Assembly: GCA_019693395.1 (NCBI GenBank) | Contig: JAAMXP010003610.1 | Coordinates: 1-19,358, forward strand | Direction of reading: 5' to 3' | Origin: Ettlia oleoabundans | Taxonomy: Eukaryota > Chlorophyta > Chlorophyceae > Chlamydomonadales | DNA length: 19,358 bases | Shown: piece by piece, positions 3,767-19,299 of the stretch | Position numbering within the stretch: the stretch's first letter is position 1 | Layout: each line of letters starts with the position of its first letter | The notes under the pieces: model-generated | Told to the model about the DNA's origin: nothing | The model's input: the letters and a program-made list of their open reading frames with translations, nothing else | Database searches by the model: none | Translations under genes and position numbers: made by a program

Positions 3767-4657
3767 TCAATACGCAGCCGAAGCAAGGTCAAGGATGGAA
3801 ATTGTGAGGGTCTTATAGATGCGCTTGCAGCACACAGGGCACTGCTTGGTCGCCTCTTTTTTCGCGGCACACCCAGCGCACAGTGCCAGGTGCCCACAGG
3901 GCGACAGTGGCACCGTGCGCGGCGCCTCCAGGCACACCACACACTCGATGCCGTCACCACCAGCTGAGACGTTCTCTGCCGGCCGCCTGGCCTTGATCAG
4001 CTGGCGCACAGCCGAGGCTGCCAGCTTCACCACTTGATGTGCACCGCTAGCGGCTACCGCGGTGCCTCCTGCTGCCTCCTCACCCACTGCCGGGTCGCCA
4101 GCAGGTGCCAGCAGCTGCAGCAACTGGCCGCAAGCTGCTGCATCCGGCCGCTCCAACATCAGCAGCCAGGGCGGACTGCCGTCCTTGTCACATGCGCTGG
4201 GGTCGGCTCCCGCCGCCAGCAGCGCTCGAGCCGCAGCTGCTGCCGTCTCGGGCACCTTGTTTTGCGTGGCCCAGTGCAGAGGCTGCATGTGCTGGTCACT
4301 GGTCTGCATGCATGCACATCAGCTGCTTCCAGTGCCTCGATTGCTGCAGTGACTGAGGACGCTCTGCCAGAAGCTGCTGCCCAGTGCAAGGGCTCAGTGC
4401 CCTTGCCGGAGCGCGCCCTCACATCGCCGCCAGCTGCAACCAGCGCTTCAACCGCGGCGGATGCTGTCGCTGCATCTCTGTTGAAGGCCACCCAATGCAG
4501 CGGGTGAGTATTCCTGTTGGTACGTGCCGTCACTTCTTCTCCCGCTGCAACCAGAGCATGTATGGCAGCAGTTCGCCACACAGAGTGAGCGAAAGGGACT
4601 TCAGCAGTGGAGCGCGGTGCAGCTCCGGGGCAGCTCGCTCCAATGCTGTCTCAAACA
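3767..4657 (-). CDS. Ankyrin-repeat protein with C-terminal RING finger; apparent frameshift
   Basis: Likely an E3 ubiquitin ligase: ankyrin repeats bind the target and the RING recruits an E2. The first segment (open from 4657 or the 4581 region down to 4304) carries ankyrin units with HPLHWVAFNRDAATA and EPLHWAAASGRASSVTAA. The second (4303-3767, TGA at 3769-3767) carries QPLHWATQNKVPETAAAAAR and LLAAGADPSACDKDG. It ends in a C3HC4 RING: CVVC, CGH, CAGC, CPVC. The two segments are in different frames, offset by two bases at a GCAT repeat (near 4304-4316), in the middle of an ankyrin repeat. A 50-base GT-AG intron could also bridge them but would remove most of a repeat helix and is far shorter than neighbouring introns. 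The true N-terminus is unresolved. A 62-codon frame from an ATG at 4718 may hold the start but needs another splice or frame change. Family assignment is firm; intactness is not. Confidence 0.7.
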
Positions 4658-5277: not shown

Positions 5278-8040
5278 CTAGGCGACAACCGCCAGTGCAT
5301 GGTGTGTTCCCAGCGACACCTGCTGCACCTTATGCAGGCCAGGCACCCGCCTCGGCTCCGGCCCGCCCAGCCCCTCCCACCCGCTCCACTGCAGGGCTGC
5401 AGGGTCGGCGGTACTGCTGTAGGCCCAGTGACCAAGGCCTTCCTCCTCTGCAGTGTGAGGCAACGAGCATCGAGCAGGTAATGCGGGGATTAGTCATTAC
5501 CAGATGGATGGGGGAGAGCCAAGAAAGGAACGCAGGGAGGGAGGCTGCTTGAAGACAGACCACGGGCACCTGCCTCCTGTGCTGCATTAGTAATACACAC
5601 CTGCCCCACCCACTCTTGCAACAACCTGCCAGCTACACACAGCTGGCTGCAACACGCTGCTTGAACCAGGCTTGTACTTGTCAACAAAGGCCAGGTGCAA
5701 CCACCCAGCACCCACTTGGGCGTCCTGCTTGACCCACTGCGCGGCAAGCTGCCCATTGCCCACCTGACTGCTTCAGAAGCGCGCTAGAGGCACCCTCTGA
5801 TAGGATCGTGCCCCACAGGTAGAGGTCCCCAGCGCCTGTGATGGCGGCAGTGGAAAAGGCGCCTGCTGCCAAGCTGGAAATGCCGGCATCGGGCTGGTGC
5901 ATCACGCGGTGCGGCTGCAACCAATCGAGTTCTGGTGAGGTGGATGAACCGCTGCCGCTGCTCCCGCTGGTGCTGCTGCTACCATCGCTGGGTGAGGCAG
6001 CAGGAGACCCCTGCCGCCCAATTGTCCACACGCTGCTGCCATCAGTCATTGCAATGTGTGTGAAGCCCGCTGCAACTGAGGTCATCGGGGGGAGATCGGT
6101 GACTTCTGCCACTAGCATGCCAGGCTGGCGCAGCAGACGCAGGTTGGGAATTTGCTCTATATCCAGCTTGGGCGGCGCCTGTGCTGCTGACCTGGTGGCA
6201 GTTAGAACTGCGGGAGCTGGGGACACTGGCGCCGCTTGCGCCGACGGTCGCCGCAACGGCCTCCGCCGGCGGCCGCGTTGCCGCTGCGGCATAGCGGGAG
6301 CGCCCGTTGCTGCTGGTGCTGCTCCTGCTGTCACTGCTGCTTGCGATGGAATCTTCAGCGCTTCGCTGCCACGAGGCTGGCCCCACAAAACCACCCGCCC
6401 CGACTTTGTAAGAGCCACACAGAATGCACCGCCAGCTGCCACTTGCACCGCACCGCCGTTGTCCTTCAGCACCTGCAAGGAGAGGAGGGGGCGTTAATCG
6501 GTTATCCATGCCGGGAGTATTAGCTCAACAAGATGAGGAACATGAAACAACAAGATGTTCATTTGCCTGAAACGCGGGGCTGATACTGGTAGTGCAGCAA
6601 GCAGCAAGCAACACACGCTCACCACGGCCTGCTCCAGTGCACCTATTTCAACTGACATCCACTCTTCACGCTTACTTGAAAGGGAAAAGACTGATACATC
6701 TGCCCACCTGCGCTAGAATGCCCTCCACCCGGCGAGGAGTGGGCGACCAGCTTGAGCCGCTGCTGCCACCCAGCTCCCCATTGAAACCGCCACCAAACGT
6801 CCACACCTCCCCCGCTACCGTCACAGAGGCACTCATGAAGCGGCCGGCTGAGAGCTGCAGGCGGGAGAGATGGCAGGGAGGAAGAAAGCAATAAGGACAC
6901 AACAACAATGGGTTGAGGAGGGTTGCAATACTATCTTCAGCTGCTGCCTGCCGATCGCACGACCCTTGGAGACATCCGGCCCACAGCGGACGCCACATAT
7001 TCTTAAGGGTTTTGTATACACACATGACTATCGAAAAAGGTTGCAGAAAATACAGCTCAAACACATCTAGAAATAAAGCCGTGCAGGCGGCGGCGCAGCA
7101 AGCAGTACATGTACCTGCACAATGCGCTCTGAATCCAGGCCTGCCAGCTCGGGCAGCATGGGGGAGAAAATGCCCTGCCTGGCACGCCCCAGTCGCACAG
7201 GGGAGGCAATCTGGCCCGGCATGAGGCCCGGGATAGCTATGTCTGCAGGTTGTGAAGGGGGATGATGGGACAGGGGCAGGGGAGATAAGGTCAGGGTGAA
7301 GCAGAATCAAGCAGCAAGCACAAGCACGATGGAGGTACATGGAGCTGCATGCCAAAAGAGCACAGCAGCTAACAAGCCAGCCATGGAGGATGGCAGCCTG
7401 TAACTCATGCGGCAGTCGTGCAGTAAGGCAAAGGACAGTCGGGCGCGTAGACGGGCATGCAAGCATTGTGGATCCAGCAGGCGACCACTTCGGACCGGCC
7501 GGCTAACACAAACAGTAGCACGCAAAAGCGGGCAGGCAGGCAGGCCATGCTAGTGGTCTACCGGCGCTGTGGGCCACTGGGATACAGTCACCAGGGCTGC
7601 TACCCCACCTGCTCCCTTGGCTGCCTCAAACCGCTGCCAAGCGCTCCGCTGCTGCACCAGGCGGCGCATGCTGGCGTCATACCTGCGGCGCATAGGAGGG
7701 GAAGCAGCGGCAGGCAGTGGTGAGCGGCCAAAGCAGGGGTATTGGACCACAGGTGTTCTAGCAGTTCGCCTTCGTACACGCACTATCACACAGCGGCAGA
7801 TGCAGCAGGCAATGCAGTGGGGGGAAGCTGCTTGTTGCTGAACAGCATGGCAGTGCTGAACAGCATTGCAGCGCTGCTCAACAGCTGTTGTATCACCATG
7901 GCAGTGGACCCACATTGAAACGGCGGTTTCCAGCTCAGACGAACGCTCTCCATGCTCCACAAACGGCAGGAGGTGCGTGTTCTGCCATGCGTTCTGGGCA
8001 AACCACTCCACACTGCGCTGGAACTGCTGCTGCTCGTAAG

Positions 8041-8071
<31 letters not shown>

Positions 8072-9003
8072 AGCTGCGGCGGCGGCGCCGCCACCACTGG
8101 TGCTGGCGGCCGCCGCTGCGAGGCCGCCAGCCACTGACGGCCTCCAGCCTGGAAGCGCCCCCGCCGCTTCGTACTGCTGCCGTTGCTGCCGCGCAAGCTC
8201 CTCAAGAGGTGTGCCCAGCCCGCACTGCCCCTCCTTGTTCTCTCCAGTAGCCCAGGCTTGGCCGCTGGAGTCCAGAAATAGGGTGTGCTGCCGACCCAGC
8301 GCAGCACCCACCACATGCACCCTCCCCGCCAGGGACTCCACGCACTGCGGCACGTGGCAGCTGTCTGCAGGCAGGCAAGTGTGGGTGGCTGTTGCAAAAT
8401 AGTTGATAGTGATGCATGACTGATAGCAGGGAGAGGCAATAGGGCAGGCCAGAAGCCAACCAGCCAGCCAGCCAGCCAGTCAGCCAGAGAGTGGGCAGGG
8501 CAGCAGCACCACAGAGCGCTGCCACACATCTCCCAACCCTGGAAAGAGCGTCCCATGCCCACATACCAGTGCTGCCGTGGCCCAGCTTGCCATCGCGGCC
8601 GTCACCCCAGGTCAGAACCTCGCCATTGCTCAGCACGCCAGCCGAGTGTGTTTTGCCCGCCGTCAGCACCGCGACCGGCAGACCTGTAAATGCCTCAACC
8701 TCACGCGGCTGTAGCAGCACCGGAAGGTACGTGGCCACCCCGCACTGGCCCTCAGTATTGCTGCCCCTGCACAGCGGGAGCAGCATTCGGAGCAAGCGTG
8801 AAAGTGTCAGGGTTGAGTGACCATGGCTTATGGTGGCGGAGGCAGCGCGTGTGTTGACGGCAGGGCAGGCGAGTGAATTGCCCCACGCAGGCCGCTGCGG
8901 CTCCACGCCAGCCACGTAACTCTTACAGCAGGTCTCACCAGGCCACCACGCTGTAGCTGCGGCCCAAGCCTGGACCCGACAGGGCTCGCTTGAGCCACCG
9001 CAT
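5278..9003 (-). CDS. RCC1-repeat protein with mitochondrial-type presequence, eight exons
   Basis: Exons: 9003-8939, 8766-8567, 8364-7914, 7682-7609, 7242-7115, 6854-6708, 6472-5764, 5447-5278. The total is 1944 bases (647 residues) with TAG at 5280-5278, and every junction phase agrees. RCC1 blades are clear: VVAWGSNTEGQCG (about 19-31), AGKTHSAGVLSNGEVLTWGD, ALGRQHTLFLDSSGQAWATG, SAGRFMSASVTVAGEVWTFG, AAGGAFCVALTKSGRVVLWG, AAGFTHIAMTDGSSVWTIG and a final VSLGTHHALAVVA. The N-terminus MRWLKRALSGPGLGRSYS is basic with no acidic residue, like a mitochondrial presequence. Mitochondrial RCC1-like proteins (RCC1L in animals, RUG3 in plants, FMP25 in yeast) act in organelle RNA processing or respiratory assembly, so a role of that kind is inferred. 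Two inserts interrupt the propeller: a poly-Gln run at 187-196 and an Ala/Pro/Arg-rich stretch with RQRGRRRRPLRR in exon 7. A nuclear RCC1/UVR8-type role is less likely. Confidence 0.88.
8042..8071. repeat. (CTG)10 encoding a poly-Gln run in the RCC1-repeat protein
   Basis: Ten perfect CTG units on the plus strand, read as ten CAG (Gln) codons at residues 187-196. They sit between an Ala-rich stretch and another Gln-rich segment. Length probably varies between strains. Confidence 0.9.
8458..8488. repeat. Imperfect (CCAG)n tract in RCC1-gene intron 2
   Basis: Repeated CCAG units with one CAGT variant, inside the 202-base second intron (8566-8365). Related CCTG/CTTG tetranucleotide tracts recur at 16371 and near 18145, so this is a repeat style of this genome. 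Confidence 0.7.
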
Positions 9004-10872
9004 GGTCGCGACCCCAGCGGCTTAGCCTTGATATTCTAATATATTCAGACAGAGCAGGTTTAGCGGCCCTGGGAAAACACCGCGCAAGCCGGCAGCAGTG
9101 CCCCCGAGAGGTGTGCTTTTTCACCAATAGCCGAGGCCCCCGATCAATGTTGTTGTGCCGCTTGCAACTCACAAAGACCACCCGGCGAGGGTGCCAGCGA
9201 TTCCGCTTTCTTCATGCCAGCATGGCAAGCGTGCCGCTGCCGCCATGGCTGCCACCAACTGGGCGGTTGAGCCCCTGGACTGAGGCGTTATCAATGCAAC
9301 TCGCTAAGCAGCGCCTACCTCGTTCACGCCCCAAACAGGTGCGCTTGCTGGCTGTTATAAAGGATAAACCCTGCAAACGGCATGCGGACCTGTCTGATCG
9401 GGAATGACGCCATCCACATCCACATCCACTGTGCAACGTCTTGGCAGTTGTAGATGAAGCTAAAAAGGACAAATGCTGCAGCAGCAGACCTTGTAGATAG
9501 GATAGTAACGCGTGCCTCAATTCAATCTGCCATTCTTGAATCAATCCAACGCATGTCCCAATGGGAATAGGAACCCAACACCCTTTCACGCTGCATACCC
9601 CCACCTCGAATGCATCCCCAAACCGGGAGCTGGTGAGCGGAGCTGCTGCACCTTGCTGGCTTATCCATCGCATTCCGCTGCAGACCAAGGATATGCTAGC
9701 TAGCCCTGCAGCTGCTAGATCCAGCCTTGCACGCGCAGGCTGTATACTCCTACCCAATGTAGCCGGCTGCAGGCCCGCTGCAAGCTGCTTTGCCCACTGC
9801 CGTTTGGTGTGCCGCCGGCATGACCTTCAACCGACTAGCCAGGTGGACGCTGGGTATACAGGGCCTGATGCAGGCTGCTGGCTTGGTACAACAGCAGGAA
9901 GCGCCCCAGAACCAGGCGCAGGGCAGACCAGTCACACCTGCCTATGCGTGCTTGACGCTCCGCTGTTGGGAGGTCCAGGTGAATGGTAACTCCAAGGTTG
10001 CACCTCCTGCAAATTCTTGAATCTCTAGGGTGATCAGGGCGATGCATATTTCCGTGTTGTTTTTCTCGCGAAACCCCCGCATGACAGTGTGCCCAGGAAG
10101 TGATTGGGGGACTCTTGAGGTCGCAGCCCCAGTCCCTCTGCCTGCCAGGCCCTGGCGCCTCATCAGCACTGCACCTGCCTTACTTTCCTCATGCCAGTTT
10201 GCAGTACACTGCAGCTGAATCCTCGGCGTATGTTGCTGTTCCAACGTTCTGATACCGCCTCTAGGTCTCTTACAGTGTCTAGCACACCAAGACGCCCTCC
10301 TAAAGCAGTCCAAGGTTCTGCCGCTGGCCACATAGCTACCTTGCCTTGGCGTGCAGCCCCAATTGCCCTGCCTGCCTGGACAGTGCAAGACGAAATTCAA
10401 GGAATAAGACATTGCTCTTGACCTTTGGCATGCAGGGCACCTGCCGCGCTGGTGGCGGCACTAGCCGGCTGCCTCCTGCTTTGCACGATGTGCAGGGCAG
10501 GTCGTTGTTCCAGGTGACACTCAGTAGTTTTGTTGGTGTAAAACAAACTTCACGGCTACTTCACGCCTGCACAGGGACCTCCACCTGGAGAACAGCCTTC
10601 AACAGCCTCTTCTCTGGGCAAAGGGTTGCCATATGCCTGGCGGAGCCCCTGCTAGCGCTGCTGCACCAGGAGGTGCCAGTGGCTTTACCACTACCGCAAG
10701 CGCTGAGCCCACCATCACTCCAGGCACTGTCCCTGCCACTGTTCCTGGCGGTGGCCCTACCCTAGTCACCTCCTTTCCTCAGGCGACATGGCAGCTGCCT
10801 GTGAGGTCTTCTCTCCCGCCACCATGTCCAACTTTCTGACGCGATTGTCAATGCAGGGGCAGCGGTAACAGC
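9004..10872. other. 1.9-kb stretch without a recognisable gene
   Basis: It lies between the RCC1-gene start and the truncated SelU-family fragment. An AT-rich patch at 9029-9047 lies about 30-45 bases upstream of the RCC1 start codon and may belong to its promoter. A 181-codon minus-strand frame (9757-9212) and several plus-strand frames of up to 142 codons are open, but none resembles a known domain. A plus-strand stretch at 10633-10839 reads as Ala/Gly/Pro/Thr-rich protein-like sequence. The missing downstream exons of the SelU fragment were looked for here and not found. Confidence 0.5.
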
Positions 10873-11163
10873 TCAGAACGGACCCCACAGCGACGTGATG
10901 TCCACCTGTTGCTGGCTGGATGCCAGGTACACCTGCTGGCCGATCAGCTTGCCATAAGGTGACTCCAGCTCTGCTGTGCCAGGTGCATCAGCGTGAGCGG
11001 CGGAGCAGCACACCCGCAGGCCTGCGGCGATCTGATGACGGCCTGCGCTGGCCGCTGAGCGAGCAAAGGCTGGAACAACGATGCCAAGTTGCGGCAGGAG
11101 GCGAGCGCCGCAGGGAGAATTGGCGACCGTCCTCACGGCGGGCGGCAGGGCGGCGCGAGCCAT
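10873..11163 (-). pseudogene. Truncated SelU/PRXL2-family copy (first exon only)
   Basis: From ATG at 11163 the frame resembles the first exons of the two full genes to its right: a short Ala/Arg-rich targeting-like N-terminus (MARAALPPAVRTVANS), then a conserved block with GQQVYLASSQQQVDITSLWG. Similarity stops after WGP near 10881 and TGA follows one codon later. The following segment (ERVVLVFGR in the intact sister), the splice donor, the CxxC exon and the C-terminal exons are all missing to the left. It is most simply a partial tandem duplication whose breakpoint fell inside exon 1. The open frame could still express a short, probably non-catalytic protein. An upstream in-frame ATG exists near 11325. 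Confidence 0.7.
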
Positions 11164-11530
11164 GCTGCCCGGTTGCTTGCTGGCAGCAGAAACGTTGCTT
11201 CTTTTAACAACGGCCCATTGCATTGCAAAAGCTGGTTGAAGGATGCCCGGGGAAGTTGTCCGGCCACAACTCAACCCCGTATATCTAGGAAGCTGAAATG
11301 GCCAAACCCTACCTGCAGGTTTCACATGGAGTGAGCATACGGGTGTAACAGAGCAACAGAAGCCCTTCTGTGCCTTCTATGCAGCGATGGTGCTTGGGCA
11401 CTGCAGCATCCGACAAGAACAAGAACTCTCAGCAGCTCTGACTCAGGCATCTTTCAAGAGGCCTCAGCGGTCATCCCGCCAGCGTTCCACCCAGACGTGC
11501 TTCAACCTGGCCATGGGGCTGCTACAATTG

Positions 11531-11535
11531 TTACA
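11531..11535 (-). terminator. Candidate TGTAA poly(A) signal of the Cys SelU-family gene
   Basis: Minus-strand TGTAA, 341 bases past the stop at 11877. The spacing closely matches that of the sister gene (TGTAA 345 bases past its stop). Confidence 0.45.
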
Positions 11536-11574
11536 AGGACAGGTGCAACAAGGATGGGTGCATCTACAGTAACT

Positions 11575-11613
11575 ATGATATACATTAACTTAGTAATCAA
11601 GTGAATATATCAT
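11575..11613. repeat. AT-rich inverted repeat past the 3' end of the Cys SelU-family gene
   Basis: ATGATATA at 11575-11582 and TATATCAT at 11606-11613 form a perfect 8-bp inverted repeat around a 23-base loop, in an unusually AT-rich patch. It lies about 265-300 bases past the stop of the Cys gene and before its candidate TGTAA, so it would fold in that 3' UTR. It lacks the quartet and AA features of a SECIS. Confidence 0.55.
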
Positions 11614-11876
11614 GACATGCAACCACAAACGTCTGAAAAAGGCACGCCAGATAACACCCGATAACTGCCAAGCTGATAGGCTTCCCATCTTGAGCCGACA
11701 GCCTCAAGTGGGTGTTGATTCGGAAGGTGCCTGGCTGCGTTCGTTCATCAATGGTTGCGCAAAAGACGCAGTAATGGCGAAGTGTGGTTTGCGCAAATCT
11801 GGGCTGGCTGGCACGCCCAGGTGGAATGAGGGTTGACTTCAGGCGGCAGCACCCACAAAGCCCTCCGTTGGCGGGC

Positions 11877-13591
11877 CTACGACCCCTCAGTAGCCACCTT
11901 CACCACCTGATCCAGGTCAGCATGAAGTGCGGTGGCACGGTCAGCATGCGACCACAGCAGGCGGCGCCCCTCAAACACAAGCACCCCGCCTTGGAACAAC
12001 AAATCCTCCAGGCGTGGTGGCAAGATGAGCTTATAGTTCTGCAGAAAGCAAGAAAAAACAGGCACGGAAAATGATATGCAGGTCAGAACAAAATGTGCAA
12101 AGGTTGTGCACAATGATGAATAAATTTGTGCAGTTGCAACCCATCGTGCATTTTGAGCAAGTTGGTAGCAACTTGGAGTGGTTTAGAGTGGTGACGTGTG
12201 CAGCACGCTGCTCACTGACTGGTACACCCCTGTACTAAAGCAGACGATAATAGACACAACATTGACAGTTGCACTGTCCACATTGACTAAGACTATGTGT
12301 GATAGGCACGAGAGGGCGCGGGCGGCCATGGAGGTGGGAGGTGCGGAGGTGGGGGGCAGGCCCCTAGGCTGATCTAAGTAACTTTCTTATGTAGACAATT
12401 GGCAGCTTCGTGCGCAGGCAGAACGGTTCAACAGGCTGAAACTCCACATATTACGGGCCTACAGCTTATTTGCTGGCCATCCCCAGCCGCACACCCAACC
12501 ATGTTGACCGCCCCCCCCCCGTGTTGGGAAAGCAGCTATCCTCCGCCCACCTTTAAGGCCTCTTTCAGATGCGTGCCTGTGCCACTCATGCGCTCCCTGA
12601 GTGCTGCATAGGTATCCCCAGCAAGGTAAGCAGGTTTGAAGCCGCGAGTGAAATCCAAAGCTTTGTAGCACGCGCTGTCAGTGTCGATGAGCAAGCGATC
12701 AGCAGGGAAGCCCGACCGCTCAACAAACTCTGCAGCGTCCTGCAGGGGAGCACTAGCAAACCGCATTGACCTTCAAAATTACAGGGGCTGGAGGTGCCAG
12801 AGTGTGAAATTGTAGAGTTGGCGTTTGTATCATCGGGGCACTGTGGCTTAGACTGTGTTGCAAGCCTGGGCTGGCGCAGCACCAGGATCGTTGCAAGAAA
12901 CTGGGGCAGCCAGTCAGCCGCGAGAACCCACCTGCGGAGTTGTGATGGTGGTGAGGAAGAGTTTGACTGAGGCTGCATCAAGCACTGGCATGATGTCATG
13001 CTGCAACTGCCGCGCCAGCTCCCAGCAGAAGAAGCAGCCTGGATGAATGGGACAAGGGGCAGCGGAGAAGCTCGTGGTGGGAAAGGAATGCTTGAAGCGC
13101 AACCAAGGCATGACTGACACACCGCGGGCATTGAGCAGAAGGTGAGAGGATGCCTGGCGCTTTCCCCTGAATTGCAAGCTTAAGCGTCGGTGGAGCTGTA
13201 CACATGGTGCTGCCAAACTGTACCTCCCAATTGCTGCCGTTAGCAGGCTCTCACCAGTGGTGCGGCCAAAGACCAGCACAACCCGCTCGGCGGGTCCCCA
13301 CAGCGATGTGATGTCCACCTGCTGCTGGCTGGATGCCAGGTAGACCTGCTGTCCACGCAGCTGCTCGAATGCTGACTCCCGCTCTGCAACGTTGGGTGAA
13401 CCCAGTGGAGTGGCGGCAGCAGTGGCGCATACCCTTAGGCTTGCGGCAGCCTGGCGACCGGCTGAGCCAACCTCTGGGCGAGCAAATGCTGGCAAGCCGG
13501 TGACATGTCGCACGCGGCCGCCGCAGAGCAAGCTGGAGAGCCCTGACGCGGGCACTGCCCTGACACCCGGGTTCAAGAAGGCGCGGCTCAT
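11877..13591 (-). CDS. SelU/PRXL2 (AAED1-like) thioredoxin-fold protein, Cys form, likely plastid
   Basis: Exons: 13591-13255, 13038-12932, 12739-12551, 12038-11877, giving 264 residues with TAG at 11879-11877 and consistent phases. It belongs to the AhpC/TSA antioxidant family related to selenoprotein U and plant AAED1 proteins, probable thiol oxidoreductases. The N-terminal 60 or so residues are Ala/Arg/Ser-rich with few acidic residues, like a chloroplast transit peptide. The core begins at FEQLRGQQVYLASSQQ and VDITSLWGPAERVVLVFGR. The active site GCFFCWELARQL spans the first intron (Cys114 and Cys117). Then come FPADRLLIDTDSACYKALDF and the C-terminal LLFQGGVLVFEGRRLLWSHA and HADLDQVVKVATEG. 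Exon plan and two exon lengths (107 and 162 bases) are identical to the sister gene at 14570-16100. Start chosen as the ATG opening the targeting-like segment. I saw no SECIS-like fold after the stop, as expected for a Cys form. Confidence 0.9.
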
Positions 13592-13759
13592 GCTGCTCAG
13601 TTGCTTCCCGGGAACTGTACAAGTGATAGAACTGAGAGAGAAGACGTTGGGTTCGAATGGCGCGCTGGGGTTCTACTTGTACTGCGACAACGCCCGCAGG
13701 GAGCTGCAGGGAATGTGCATGGGGAAAACGGAAATCACCTTCTCTCGCGCTTCTATTAG

Positions 13760-13765
13760 TTTATA
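13760..13765 (-). promoter_or_regulatory. Candidate TATA box of the Cys SelU-family gene
   Basis: TATAAA on the minus strand, 169 bases upstream of the start codon at 13591. Judged by position and sequence only. Confidence 0.35.
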
Positions 13766-13952
13766 CCCTCAGTTTCTCAGGAAGCTGAGCTCAGCTGAGG
13801 CTATTTCCACGTTGCACCGGCGTTCGCAGTTGCCCGGGGGCAACGTTCCCTCACTTGGTTGCTTTGCTTTAAAACTTGTTTTCTTACGTGGTTTCTTACT
13901 CGATTGAATCCTCATTTGAGTTTGGGACTCTGCCTTCCCACCACTGTCGGCA

Positions 13953-14014
13953 TTTCCAGGCGTTTCCAGCTGTTTCCAGCAAGAATTTCCAGAACAAATT
14001 TCCCTGGCTGGAAA
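13953..14014. promoter_or_regulatory. Cluster of TTTCCAG motifs, four direct and one inverted
   Basis: TTTCCAG occurs at 13953-13959, 13963-13969, 13973-13979 and 13986-13992, with its complement CTGGAAA at 14008-14014. The first three are spaced exactly 10 bases apart, one helical turn. The cluster lies about 190-250 bases upstream of the candidate TATA box of the Cys gene and beyond the poly(A) signal of the Sec gene. It may be a transcription-factor array for the Cys gene, or a minisatellite. Confidence 0.45.
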
Positions 14015-14219
14015 CGCACTTTTCCCCCAAGGAAATCCTGACTATATAGCAGGGAACCTGGAGGCTGTCGCGCCAGGAGCAGATGTGAATTGCAAGGACT
14101 GCGAAGGCTTTATGCGAGCGGTATGTTTGAAGCTACACAGGGCCAGATGTGCCATTTGGGCGCAGCGCTGGTAGGCCGTGTTGCTGGCCAGTACTTATAA
14201 GTGCTGTAAGGGAACGTCG

Positions 14220-14224
14220 TTACA
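14220..14224 (-). terminator. TGTAA poly(A) signal of the SelU (Sec) gene
   Basis: Minus-strand TGTAA 107 bases past the SECIS end and 345 bases past the stop codon, so the SECIS lies inside the predicted 3' UTR. Confidence 0.6.
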
Positions 14225-14330
14225 TCGGCTGCGACAATGCTTTGTGGATAGCAGCTGTAAAATCAAAAGGATCACTGCAACTAGTTGCACATGCAACAGC
14301 AGGTGCTGCAGCAAGACACACTCCAGCGCA

Positions 14331-14405
14331 AGCACCACAGGGTCAGCCCCCGGCTCGGCAGGTAGTACCATGCCTTTCAGCCCAGAAGCGTCATGAATGG
14401 GTGCT
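14331..14405 (-). promoter_or_regulatory. Putative form-II SECIS element in the SelU 3' UTR
   Basis: All parts of a eukaryotic SECIS can be drawn. Helix I: AGCACC (14405-14400) pairs with GGTGCT (14336-14331). A small internal loop follows. The non-Watson-Crick quartet is TGAC (14393-14390, within ATGA at 14394) facing TGAC (14345-14342). Helix II: GCTTCTGG (14389-14382) pairs with CCGGGGGC (14353-14346) with G-U wobbles. After one bulged G it is extended by CT (14380-14379) with AG (14355-14354), ten pairs in all. The conserved AAA (14377-14375) sits 13 bases after ATGA. Above it a mini-hairpin (14374-14357, GGCA/TGCC and GGT/ACC arms) gives the form-II shape. It lies about 165 bases past the stop codon. 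Drawn by hand; no folding energy was computed. Confidence 0.8.
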
Positions 14406-14569
14406 GGTCTGGCTGCTGCCTGCTGCTGCACCTGGCGTCTGTCAGGTGCAAACTTTGGAAGAAGGGGTGATTGGTCCAGGCAAACTGGGGCTGATAGGCA
14501 GTTGCTGCTCACCAGAGTGCGTGCAGCATGCAGCAGCACTCGCAAAACCTGCCAGCTGGCTGGCCTGGC

Positions 14570-16100
14570 CTACAGACCCTCAGTAGCCACCTTCACCACC
14601 TGATCTAGGTCAGCGTGTACTGAGGTGCCGGGGTCGTAGTGGGACCACAGCATGCGGGGCCCCTGAAACACAAGCATTCCGCCTTGGAACAGCGCTTGCT
14701 CCGATCTTGGCGGCATGAGCGGCTTGTAGGTCTGCGGCAAGGCAGCAACAGGAGGAACCAGGCATACTCGGTTTGCAAGGTTGACTCTAAATGGTGGTAC
14801 AGGGTGGTTGAGGTGTCAACAAAAGCCACAGTTGCAGCTATGAAGTCTGTGTCATGCCCGGCATTACCGTTCTGGCGGTGCCAACTGGCACCTTTGTGCG
14901 CAGGGGAAGCATCACTGGCACCTGTGCCAAACACAACTTGCATCTGCACCTGACCACATCTTTGCAGCAACCAAACGCATGAGGGGTCATCTGGACAGCC
15001 CCAAATCCTGCCCTGCATCCCAGGCCCGCTGCCCACATTGTCCCCCTCTCGTCTGTCACCCCCACACCCCACCCCCCCACCCCGGCCGTGCCAACCTTAG
15101 CCTCACCTTGAGCATCTCCTTCAAATCGGCATCACCACCGCTATCTATGCGCTTCTTGATGGCAGCAGGCGTGTCACTGTTGAAGAAGGTGGCACGCAGG
15201 CCTCGCTTGAAGGCCAGTGCCTTATAGCATGCATTCTCTGGGTCCGCCAGCAGGCGATCAGGCGGGAAGTCCGTCTGCTTAGCAAGTTCCACGCCGCTCT
15301 GCAGGGTACAAGCGGGAAAGAATACTACGACAGCTTATGAAGCCTGTTTTGCCATGAGACGAGGATTCATGGCAGCCCTTGCATGGTGTTAGCCAGCAGT
15401 TTTCAGGTGGTTCGCCCCAACCAGCAGCCAAGTGAGCAGCCGCTGCAGCTAGATAGTCTGCTGTGCACCTGGGGCGTGCCGATTGTAATGAGGAAGAGTT
15501 TAACGGAGGCTGTGTCGAGAGCTGGCATGACGTCGCGCTGCAACTGCCGCGCCAGCTCCCAGCAGAACAGTCAGCCTGGCAAGTGGAAGGAGGAAAACGA
15601 GGGGCATGGCAAGGGCTTCAATCAATAAATAATGCCTTCATTACGATGCATGCACATTGGTGTGCATAGCAACTTCTGCATACTGCGCCATACAAAACGC
15701 AATGCGTGTGACACTGCAGCACTGAGCTGATGCCATAGATTTCCAGCAGCCCGTGGCAGGCAGGTACACACTCACCCATATGGCGCCCAAAGGCCAGAAC
15801 AACACGCTCAGAAGGACCCCACAGCGATGTGATGTCCACTTCTTGCTGACTGGACACTAGGTGCACCTGTTGTCCACGCAGCTGCTCGTATGATGCCTCC
15901 AGCTCTGCAGTGGTCGGTGCATTGCTGGGCCCAGCCGAGGCGTGCAGCCGCACGGGGGCGGCTGCCGAGCGGCGGACGGCGCAAGCGTCCGGGCGCGCAT
16001 GCGCTGGAGCTACTACTGCATGCTGCGGCAGAAGGCGCGCAGGTCGGTGCAAAGCGAGGCTCGGCCCGCTGACAGCAGGACTCGCTGCCGCCCGAGCCAT
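14570..16100 (-). CDS. SELU: Selenoprotein U (SelU/PRXL2 family) with in-frame TGA read as selenocysteine, likely plastid
   Basis: Exons: 16100-15776, 15575-15469, 15298-15107, 14731-14570, giving 261 residues with TAG at 14572-14570. All phases agree and match the Cys sister gene exon for exon. Joining exons 1 and 2 gives FGRHMG, then TGA (15573-15571), then LFCWELARQL. The sister reads FGRTTGCFFCWELARQL, so TGA replaces the first Cys of the CxxC active site and the product has U110-L-F-C113. The frame is open after TGA for 151 more residues with strong conservation (FPPDRLLADPENACYKAL, ALFQGGMLVFQGPRMLWSHY, VHADLDQVVKVATEGL). A SECIS at 14405-14331 supports Sec insertion. SelU-family proteins are probable thiol/selenol oxidoreductases, and Sec forms are known in fish, green algae and diatoms. 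The Ala/Arg/Ser-rich N-terminus suggests chloroplast import. A nonsense mutation is the alternative, but the clean downstream frame and SECIS argue against it. Confidence 0.88.
15571..15573 (-). other. TGA predicted to encode selenocysteine (residue 110)
   Basis: The second codon position of exon 2, two bases after the acceptor CCAG (15579-15576). It aligns with TGC (13036-13034) in the Cys paralogue. Two introns remain downstream in the pre-mRNA. Confidence 0.85.
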
Positions 16101-16342
16101 ACTGCTTGCACAGTGCCGTAGCGGCAGGGCCGATGAGGTTGTGTCGTGTTTGAAACGACGCCTCGGGCCAAGCGAGCCAGCATGCGTGGCGGAATCGGCG
16201 GCAAGCGCGGCTGCTGCTGCGCACGCTGCGGTTGCCGCCGTTGCTGCCGGCACAATGCACTGCTCTGTCAAGAGTGGGATGTCAAAGCCCAGGTATGATT
16301 CTCTTTTGTAGCAAGGATTGAGACCCGATGTCTCGCGAAGTC

Positions 16343-16348
16343 TTTATA
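16343..16348 (-). promoter_or_regulatory. Candidate TATA box of the SelU (Sec) gene
   Basis: TATAAA on the minus strand, 243 bases upstream of the start codon at 16100. Positional evidence only. Confidence 0.3.
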
Positions 16349-16370
16349 AGCTCCAAACGCCCGATTCTTT

Positions 16371-16391
16371 GCCTGCCTGCCTGCCTGCCTG
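16371..16391. repeat. (GCCT)n microsatellite
   Basis: About five GCCT units just upstream of the candidate TATA box of the SelU gene. Confidence 0.8.
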
Positions 16392-17287
16392 CCCGCCCAA
16401 CCTGCCAAGATGGGTGCCTTGCAACATTCCTGAGACCGGTGTGCCTGAGAACTGGTGTGAGCATGTTTGCTGTAAACTTAATGTAGATGAAAGGCATTGC
16501 TGAAGCTGCCTTACAGGAAGCCCACCTCCGTCCACCAAGACTGTCATCAACTCTACATGCACGTGCCAACCGACACCCCATGCCAACATGGACTGGTTGT
16601 GTCGACTGTTGCGAGCAGTGTTGGCAGCCTGGCTAGAGCTTCTGTAGCGAGATGTGCAACTGTGTCAGAAGTCACTTTGGCACCCTGTGCAACTTATGCT
16701 TGGCTGCAATGCGCATTGCTCCAAGGAAGTGGCGACAACAGGCTGACTGGAGTACTCTGGTCACTATGGTCTCACTGCCAGCAAAAACAACTAGCTTCCA
16801 TGCGGGTGGCCGCAGATAGACGTGTCTGGTACAGCCTTGCAAAATCATGGATCAAGGGATACCATTCATGGGCTGCTGCAATGCAGGCGTGGGCAAGGCA
16901 TCCGCCGCGTGTGCGCGCTGCATTGCCTGCAGACAGGCCCTTGCCGCACACGATCGGCCGATAGAGTGCCGCTCTCAATTCAGAGTTCCATTAGCACGTA
17001 CATATGTGAAAGCCTACTCTGCTGCGTTGAACGCAGCCTGAACGCGGTGGACATGCCACCATGTCGATGGTTAGCTCAACTTGGGCAGCGGCCATTGGGC
17101 CGCCCGCACTACGAACTGGCGGTCAGAACATGCCGACTTTCCCAACAATGGAGGCTTTTGGGCGCCTTTCCAAGAAAGTTGTCCACTGGGGCAGGAGGCG
17201 ATTGCACCACCCCATTTTGCCATCGGCGCCGCCACATCAATCGTTTGCAGCTGTTTGAAGTGTCGGGGGTTCCCCTAGCACACCAGT

Positions 17288-19278
17288 ATGGCATCCGCAG
17301 TCGCAGCCACCGCCACCAGCCTGGCCCGGCCTGTGCCCAGCGTCTCGGCCGCCAAGCACTCTAGCTTCTTCGCTGGTAGCGCCCGGCTGGCGCCTCCCCG
17401 CGCCCAGAGCGGCGCCCTGCTGTCGGCCCGCGCCCGCCAGGCCGCCACCATTGAGGCCCGCGCCGCCGCCAAGACCACCGGCCAGCAGATCACAGTTGAT
17501 GTTGAGAAGCCCCTTGGCCTGGTGCGAACATCACCACACTAATCAGAAACGCTGGGTCAATGGCAGCGCACTTTGGAACACAAGCCGCGGCCTTGGCTTC
17601 AGCCACTGCCGCTCCCTGCCGCTGCCCGCTGCTCTCCATTATTGGGTGCTGGGCAGAGCCATGGGGAACCCCCCATTGCAAACCATATGTCTGCCTGCTG
17701 TGCTTGCCTTGCCTTCTGAAGGTGTTGGACCAGGCACGTGGGTCCAAGGGAGGCCTGGTGGTGAAGTCTGCCAGCGGTAATGCAGCCAAGGTGGGCAACG
17801 GCAGGCTTACCATAGCCGGCGGTTGCTTCTTCTGTGGCCGCCAGCTTTGCCAAATGTGCCAGCCGCAACCATGCATATGCCTGGCATCTCGCCCCCAGTC
17901 CTGCTTTTGCTTCTTCACTCACCTCATTGCGCTTCATTAATACATCAAGTTTTATTTCTTGCTATCTGCAGGCGGGCATCCAGTCAGGCGACACCGTCAT
18001 CTACACCTCTTCTTTCTTCGGCGATGAGCTCTGGCCTGCCGACAAGCTGGGGTTCACACGCAGCGCCCTGCAGGTACACATGCCTGCCTGTCTGCCTCTT
18101 GGTCCTGCCTCCCTAACTGCAGTCCTGCTCACACTCTGCGCGCTGGCTTGCTTGCCTGCTTGTTTGCTTGCTTGCTGTTGCCTGCCTGGTGTATGCATGC
18201 ATCCCTATGAGAGCGCAGCGATGTTTCTTTTTCTCTTTGGTCTTTGCCATATTCATGGCAAGCTGGACTTAAGGCTGCACCCCAGTTATGTTCTGTGAGA
18301 CGCATCCGTAGCAGCTTGCAAAATGCATTGACTGCGTGTGGTTGTGCTGTCTGGTCTGGGGCCCTGGGTGATGCCAACACGCGCTGTCACTCAATTTGCC
18401 AACTTTTGCGTTCAACAACGTTGTTGGAAATATTCTCATCTTCAGCTTCTGCTGCATCAAACTTTCCAATCATCACATCTTGTCTCAGCCCTCCATGGCT
18501 GGCCACCACTGCTCCCAACGGCCCGCTCTCCCGCTTCTCAAGGGTGCTGCAGGCAGCCCCTTCCCCCGGTAACCTGAATAGTCTCTCCCTGCTCCCCATT
18601 CTCTTCCACAACCACCCATCCTGCCTTTTGTCCGTGCCACTGCTGCAACAAGCCCCTCCTCTCCCTCGCTGCAGGCCGCCCCCTCCCCAGTGACCCTGGT
18701 GCTGGTGAAGGGCGCCAACGAGAGCGTGGACGTGAAGAAGCTGCCAAAGAAGCCGGCACCCGCACGCTTTGGCCGCCGCCTGACCGCGGCGCAGAAGGCT
18801 CGCGCCACACACCTCTGTGTCGATTGCGGCTACGTGAGTTTCATCTGTATGGTGTCTCTGTGTGTGTCCTTTCGTCCTGAGTGCATTTTGTATGCACCAT
18901 ACTGCGCCTATCTGGGTGCCCACTGACGCAAGTGCCCTCCTGCACCGCTGCCACTTTGCTCCTTTGTGCTGCCTGACACTTTGCACTGCGCCTGCTAGAA
19001 ATGCCTGGGGGTCGGGCATCAGGCTCTGTGGTTGGCGGCACAGCGCAACCGCTTTACACCATGTGCACTGCCCGTCCATCTTTTACACCTTTGCTGACGA
19101 CTAGTTGACGAGTTGGGCTTCAACCATGTGTACTGCCCGCTGGTGGTGGCGGTCTCATTCTGTACTGCAGATCTACTGCGACGAGACACCCTTTGAGCAG
19201 CTGCCCAGTGACTACCGCTGCCCACAGTGCAATGCACCCACGCGCCGCTTTGCAAGGTTCAATGTGGAGACGGGCAAG
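17288..19278 (+). CDS. ENH1: Chloroplast PDZ-rubredoxin protein (ENH1 type), 5' part, runs off the window
   Basis: Exons in the window: 17288-17521, 17722-17790, 17972-18073, 18675-18833, 19171-19278, 224 codons. Each exon length is a multiple of three and every intron is phase 0. Residues 1 to about 58 form an Ala/Ser/Arg-rich chloroplast transit peptide ([20 protein letters not shown]). A PDZ-like domain follows: [57 protein letters not shown]. Then [19 protein letters not shown] and ARATHL lead into a rubredoxin fold with CVDCGY and YRCPQC, so Cys183, 186, 205 and 208 would bind one iron atom. The order matches plant ENH1 (rubredoxin family), linked to ion and redox homeostasis; related rubredoxins help photosystem assembly. 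In family members a short tail, often with a membrane helix, follows the rubredoxin domain. That part lies beyond the right edge, after the donor at 19279. Confidence 0.92.
18140..18182. repeat. (GCTT/GCCT)n tract in PDZ-rubredoxin intron 3
   Basis: Degenerate tetranucleotide repeat in the 601-base third intron (18074-18674). The rest of that intron is pyrimidine-rich and shows no coding resemblance. Confidence 0.6.
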
Positions 19279-19299
19279 GTGTGTGGGGGTGTGGGGGAT

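Follow-up and report, generated by a model that had tools for sequence, protein, structure and literature searches.

A predicted selenocysteine-form SelU gene beside a cysteine-containing sister gene in the green alga Ettlia oleoabundans

We find that the green alga Ettlia oleoabundans very probably has a genuine selenoprotein gene at positions 16100-14570 of the minus strand of contig JAAMXP010003610.1. This gene is predicted to encode the selenocysteine (Sec) form of SelU, a peroxiredoxin-like thiol oxidoreductase of the PRXL2 type, and we infer that Sec is incorporated at its in-frame UGA, codon 110. The Sec reading, which the earlier note had proposed, is well supported by a match to the Pfam domain AhpC-TSA_2, a SECIS-like element past the stop codon, genes for tRNA-Sec and SepSecS in the same genome, and the same pattern of TGA plus SECIS in a second SelU paralogue and in SelT. 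The window, by which we mean the whole stretch of DNA analysed (19,358 nucleotides), is an entire contig (C966) of the genome searched, which comprises 32.9 Mb in 1230 contigs. The family members and associated elements are as follows.

16100-14570, minus strand: SelU gene (predicted Sec form), four exons of 325, 107, 192 and 162 nt
15776..16100, minus strand: exon 1 of the Sec gene, from the start codon to FGRHM-G, phase 1; possible transit peptide, judged from the N-terminus only
15469..15575, minus strand: exon 2 of the Sec gene, with the predicted UxxC redox motif (U-L-F-C-W-E)
15571..15573, minus strand: in-frame TGA, codon 110, putatively read as Sec; TGC in the Cys sister, TGA in the paralogue on C521
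15107..15298, minus strand: exon 3 of the Sec gene, carrying the AhpC-TSA_2 exon match
14570..14731, minus strand: exon 4 of the Sec gene, with TAG at its end
14331..14405, minus strand: SECIS-like element in the predicted 3' UTR of the Sec gene, 175 nt beyond the stop
13591-11877, minus strand: Cys sister gene, four exons of 337, 107, 189 and 162 nt
13255..13591, minus strand: exon 1 of the Cys sister (gene model)
12932..13038, minus strand: exon 2 of the Cys sister, with the CxxC motif (C-F-F-C-W-E)
12551..12739, minus strand: exon 3 of the Cys sister (gene model)
11877..12038, minus strand: exon 4 of the Cys sister, with TAG at its end
11653..11716, minus strand: probable decayed SECIS in the 3' UTR of the Cys sister, beginning 160 nt past the stop
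10867..11163, minus strand: third copy of the family, a pseudogene fragment made up of exon 1 alone, its frame disrupted towards the end
C521:34941-36589, plus strand: second SelU paralogue (L036), six exons, TGA at the same codon (GUPFCWEL)

The position of the TGA at the active site of a SelU-family exon 2 (15575-15469) had been noticed before, and both the coordinates and the exon starts proved exact: exon 2 begins GC-TGA-CTG-TTC-TGC-TGG-GAG in the Sec gene and GC-TGC-TTC-TTC-TGC-TGG-GAG in the Cys sister. The TGA is the first residue of the UxxC motif, and its exon is joined in frame with the three other exons. In both gene models all introns are gt..ag and the coding sequence is a multiple of three; the product of the Sec gene has 261 residues, with TGA as codon 110 followed by 151 sense codons and TAG, in agreement with the claim of a frame that continues to a normal stop. 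Exon 2 is 107 nt long in both copies and identical at 86 of 107 positions. The TGC versus TGA difference at the first redox residue stands, but the next codon also differs, being CTG in the Sec copy and TTC in the sister. Similarly, the claim that exon lengths are conserved holds for exons 2 and 4 (107 and 162 nt in both), whereas exons 1 and 3 differ slightly between Sec and Cys copies (325 versus 337 nt and 192 versus 189 nt). Over the 150 codons past the TGA, pN between the two copies is 0.218 and pS is 0.568. This persistence of protein similarity past the TGA, together with the TGA at the same codon of the C521 paralogue, suggests that the pattern is more than chance.

Judged by profile matches, the Sec gene and its sister are members of the SelU/PRXL2 family, with AhpC-TSA_2 (PF13911, cut-off 27) scoring 63.9 bits in the Sec copy, 49.2 in the Cys copy and 73.5 in the C521 paralogue. 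A profile built from ten family members had a single match in the PDB at E up to 0.01, the human prostamide/prostaglandin F synthase (9us9, E 3.2e-6). C44/C47 are named in the entry title for this enzyme, of which a second structure, 9usa, is the C44S/C47S mutant. The same enzyme ranks first by fold: the predicted structure of a Cys-containing relative, P0006 (mean pLDDT 81.4), has 9usa as its first PDB match (TMt 0.74), with many other peroxiredoxins fitting nearly as well. The human enzyme differs in having Cys rather than Sec, the identity is 17%, and the substrate need not match. In the P0006 model, C113-x-x-C116 lies at the start of helix 114-131; the thioredoxin/peroxiredoxin-like fold and the position of the motif at this helix are established on this Cys relative's model only, not on the Sec gene. 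By analogy, the UxxC of the Sec gene product would sit where the first catalytic helix begins, with Sec110 and Cys113 forming a selenenyl-sulfide redox pair, and the N-terminus suggests that the protein may be plastid-targeted.

The SECIS-like element (14405-14331) lies in what the gene model makes the 3' UTR, and it has the SECIS core with helices I and II. Helix I is AGCACC/GGTGCT, the core consists of ATGA (first A at 14394) and TGA, and helix II leads to an apical AA and a mini-stem that is type-2-like; the predicted fold has the expected SECIS shape, including the apical mini-stem. We scanned the 800 nt past the stop for the pattern ATGA-(10 to 14 nt)-AA-...-GA together with both helices, using dinucleotide shuffles as controls. 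The element was the best candidate, with a score of 38 that was reached by 0 of 200 and 0 of 2000 shuffles, while a score of 30 was reached by 10 of 2000 shuffles of this region. The scanner was designed after the SECIS elements of the Sec gene and of the C521 paralogue had been spotted by eye; those of SelT and two glutathione peroxidase (GPx) loci then came from the scanner. Across 295,240 strand-bases of loci, several of them overlapping and with 11 loci that overlap the window or L034 excluded, it returned eight candidates scoring at least 28, five of which are on the correct strand past genes with a TGA at a Sec position and three of which are not. Rfam, used at its gathering score and again with E allowed to rise to 10, reported no SECIS in the whole window or in 10500-16400, a search run without a known algal SECIS as control. 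The folding-energy z of the element is unremarkable (0.36 in 121 nt and -0.38 in a second run; -1.04 for the SelT element and -1.30 for that of C521). MAFFT did not bring the SECIS elements into register. Taken by its anatomy, this element would direct the recoding of UGA 110 as Sec by tRNA-Sec(UCA).

Components of the Sec machinery are found elsewhere in the genome. A tRNA-Sec on C534 scores 68.9 bits (cut-off 47) with the anticodon TCA and is called SeC(tca) by ARAGORN, and SepSecS is present on C399 with eight exon matches. Profiles for SPS (TIGR00476) and EFSec (PF21208), which are ill-suited to intron-rich genes, matched nothing in the genome, PF21208 being silent in every control genome too. 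Wider profiles gave two AIRS and seven SelB-profile matches, none of which is recognisable by eye as SPS or EFSec. We take the two AIRS matches to be PurM-like, and the SelB-profile matches presumably represent EF-Tu (C1228, C1095), eIF2-gamma (C652), an eRF3-like factor (C725), IF2 (C1149), a TypA-like protein (C164) and another GTPase (C453).

The combination of TGA and SECIS recurs in other genes. In the C521 SelU paralogue the SECIS lies 112 nt past the stop, with its core near C521:36702 and a score of 30 that was reached by 0 of 200 of its own shuffles. This copy is diverged, and its first intron is in phase 0 versus phase 1 in the window gene. Likewise, SelT on C257 has TGA for the U of its motif CTSU, and the SECIS that follows the stop codon at 144 nt scores 39.5 (0 of 200 shuffles). 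Five GPx loci divide into two with TGA and three with Cys. C551 (L019; ITASK-TGA) and C833 (L020; NVASE-TGA) have a TGA as the catalytic codon, with a SECIS further downstream; here the scanner found the SECIS first and the TGA was noticed afterwards, and both are kept as candidate Sec loci. The other three were rejected as Sec cases: C481 and C979 have Cys (SACG and SQCG), as does C387 (SKCG), where a TGA falls just past the PCNQ exon in intron-like sequence. We further note a family member on C395 (L037; 31748-32071, minus strand) whose motif region, FGDLSSTEL, is without Sec or Cys and which is possibly a non-redox homologue. Among viral contigs, 15 pattern matches included no relative.

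Three database searches, in one of which the best 7996 candidates by word sharing were scored, gave 28 homologues, the nearest named ones being Micractinium tetrahymenae P0001 (57% identity to the Sec gene product over 93% of the query) and a Chlorella variabilis relative (75% over 52%), which suggests a chlorellalean alga. The motif GCxxC is present in 10 of them and the first redox residue is missing in 18; a motif match in P0026 lies elsewhere in the protein and was set aside as chance. Some of the 18 are fragments ending at introns, so that a missing motif is not by itself evidence of a TGA. The tree has 17 rows, including 14 of the 28 homologues hand-picked without a preset rule, and its midpoint root serves for drawing only. 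The homologues omitted (P0002, P0003, P0008, P0009, P0012, P0018, P0019, P0021, P0022 and P0024-P0028) are mostly fragments, intron read-through or near-copies. This tree replaces an earlier one with the long-branched P0003; it is the clean repeat of a second one, in which P0001 had alignment gaps, and has the same topology. The Sec and Cys copies are placed as sisters (88/84), a pairing that is moderately supported, within a group that contains the Chlorella and Micractinium copies. Clade tests, chosen after a tree had been viewed, reject a single clade of all eight visible Cys rows (p 7.6e-6) and do not reject a grouping of the Sec copy with Chlorella that leaves out the Cys copy (p 0.27). 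The Cys copy has a branch length of 0.54 and is still constrained; that of the Sec copy is 0.11. The third, broken exon-1 copy (10867-11163) indicates more than one duplication of the family at this locus.

Past the Cys sister, the stretch 11716-11653 resembles a SECIS that has decayed. Helix I (AACACC/GGTGTT) and helix II are kept, with one G-C pair of the Sec copy's helix I replaced by A-T through changes on both sides; the 5' core reads TTGA, with AA 12 nt on, and the 3' GA core is missing. The scanner found no SECIS candidate in the 800 nt past the Cys sister stop. When the stretch was aligned to the putatively functional SECIS region, 8 of 1000 shuffles did as well, compared with 0 of 1000 when the beginning of the UTR was taken in full; the BLAST match of the stretch by itself is weak (E 0.097). 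With the 3' core left free, the skeleton scores 36.5, which was reached by 0 of 300 shuffles in a test devised after the stretch had been noticed, and the folding z is -1.66. We read the stretch as a probable fossil SECIS, which would make the Cys gene a descendant of a Sec gene.

The tree and the relic together argue for a replacement of Sec by Cys in the sister after tandem duplication, which we consider likely. The neighbouring gene would then be a duplicate in which TGA changed to TGC and the SECIS subsequently lost its core while its helices were kept. The reverse direction, in which both genes of the pair started out with Cys and Sec arose later in the rightmost copy, is quite unlikely. 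It draws on the fact that every relative with a visible motif has Cys and on the midpoint root used for drawing, but it is opposed by the decayed SECIS skeleton at a matching distance in the Cys copy, by the C521 Sec paralogue, which the tree places on the pair's own side, and by the longer branch of the Cys copy. Beyond the replacement of Sec by Cys, it is conceivable, but in our view unlikely, that the tandem genes form a selenium-dependent pair, the Sec enzyme acting at adequate selenium and the Cys enzyme standing in for it, with the Cys gene mid-way in Sec loss and its intact SECIS helices perhaps still bound by a SECIS-binding protein.

Three alternatives to the Sec reading itself were weighed. 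A very improbable one is that another acceptor splices the TGA out, leaving a mature mRNA whose product lacks the motif. The Micractinium P0001 model indeed goes straight from FGRHM to LARQL, without just GUxxCWE, and GGGAG|CTGGCG is a possible acceptor in the window too. Such a splice would, however, remove both redox residues and leave the SECIS purposeless, and Sec codons are known to be mishandled by gene finders, as treated in PMC12822975. We further note that P0003 and P0017 start at the residue right after the Sec position, and we infer a TGA at this codon in the Micractinium, P0003 and P0017 genes. It is more improbable still that the TGA arose by plain nonsense mutation, in which case the rightmost copy would be a pseudogene recently derived from the Cys gene: TGA and TGC are one base apart and the window does contain a genuinely broken third copy of the family, but the Sec copy has a SECIS where expected and on the expected strand, coding constraint past the TGA and the shorter of the two branches, and the diverged C521 paralogue has the same TGA with a SECIS of its own. 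A sequencing or assembly error is the least credible, for although the TGA was read from one assembly only, two SelU genes have it, each with a SECIS, and the gene models of some relatives break at the same codon.

Other features of the window include a multi-exon gene at 17288-19279 (plus strand, spliced by eye), probably for a plastid protein, with a PDZ-like stretch recognised by eye; its C-terminus has a rubredoxin-like domain, for which the Pfam Rubredoxin match (E 3.5e-4, 21 bits) stays below the cut-off of 23. On the minus strand, 3767-4650 combines frames that look ankyrin-like by eye with a C3HC4 RING finger (Pfam 1.8e-11, in the 3767-4318 frame); 5681-9035 holds a gene for an RCC1-repeat protein, probably of several exons, with Pfam RCC1_2 matching at 1.8e-9 on the 5681-6493 frame only; and 927-1166 contains imperfect direct repeats of about 100-130 nt that are 75-78% identical.

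With a Sec gene beside its probable Cys replacement and the decayed signal still visible, the order of events in Sec loss becomes testable at this locus. Our comparisons also suggest that some public protein models truncate or conceal SelU, those of Chlorella variabilis and Micractinium tetrahymenae and perhaps those of Parachlorella and Nannochloris, so that the selenoproteins of these algae may be undercounted. Flawed annotation of Sec codons in vertebrates is the subject of a 2026 paper (PMC12822975), and Trebouxiophyceae, along with Sphaeropleales and Streptophyta, are given 0-5 selenoproteins in one survey (PMC7539508).

The earlier note was right that Sec forms of this family are established in algae: Sec SelU is reported in Ostreococcus and Thalassiosira (PMC2375036) and in Chlamydomonas (PMC3473315), Sec SELENOU in the majority of 36 algal genomes (PMC7539508), and a possible SELENOU, by blastP, in Picochlorum SENEW3 (PMC11092101). 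Sec loss with tandem duplication is described for mammalian GPx5 (PMC3316567), fossil SECIS elements are named for Drosophila SelK in a supplementary legend (PMC2500217), and SECIS traces after Cys genes are stated to have been reported earlier (PMC7539508). In the literature searched, supplements aside, we found no earlier report of a tandem Sec/Cys SelU pair, and these genes may stand in published surveys. Two close parallels come from the algal survey (PMC7539508). Its Fragilariopsis cylindrus glutaredoxins are likewise Sec and Cys duplicates in one genome, with a Sec-to-Cys change inferred after duplication, but they belong to another family, while in Ettlia the copies adjoin and the Cys copy has a probable relic SECIS. 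The Emiliania huxleyi cluster of two SELENOU genes, attributed there to local duplication, is similar in having adjacent SELENOU genes and differs in being presented as a selenoprotein-gene cluster, with no Cys replacement mentioned in the account of it. There are published precedents for algal SelU with Sec, for duplicates of which one has Sec and the other Cys, and for fossil SECIS elements; the gene adds a new and well-supported case to a known protein family rather than defining a novel type of system. It shares with the known SELENOU forms the AhpC-TSA_2 domain, UxxC and a TGA with a SECIS in the 3' UTR, and it differs from them in its tandem Cys neighbour, which apparently retains a decayed SECIS.
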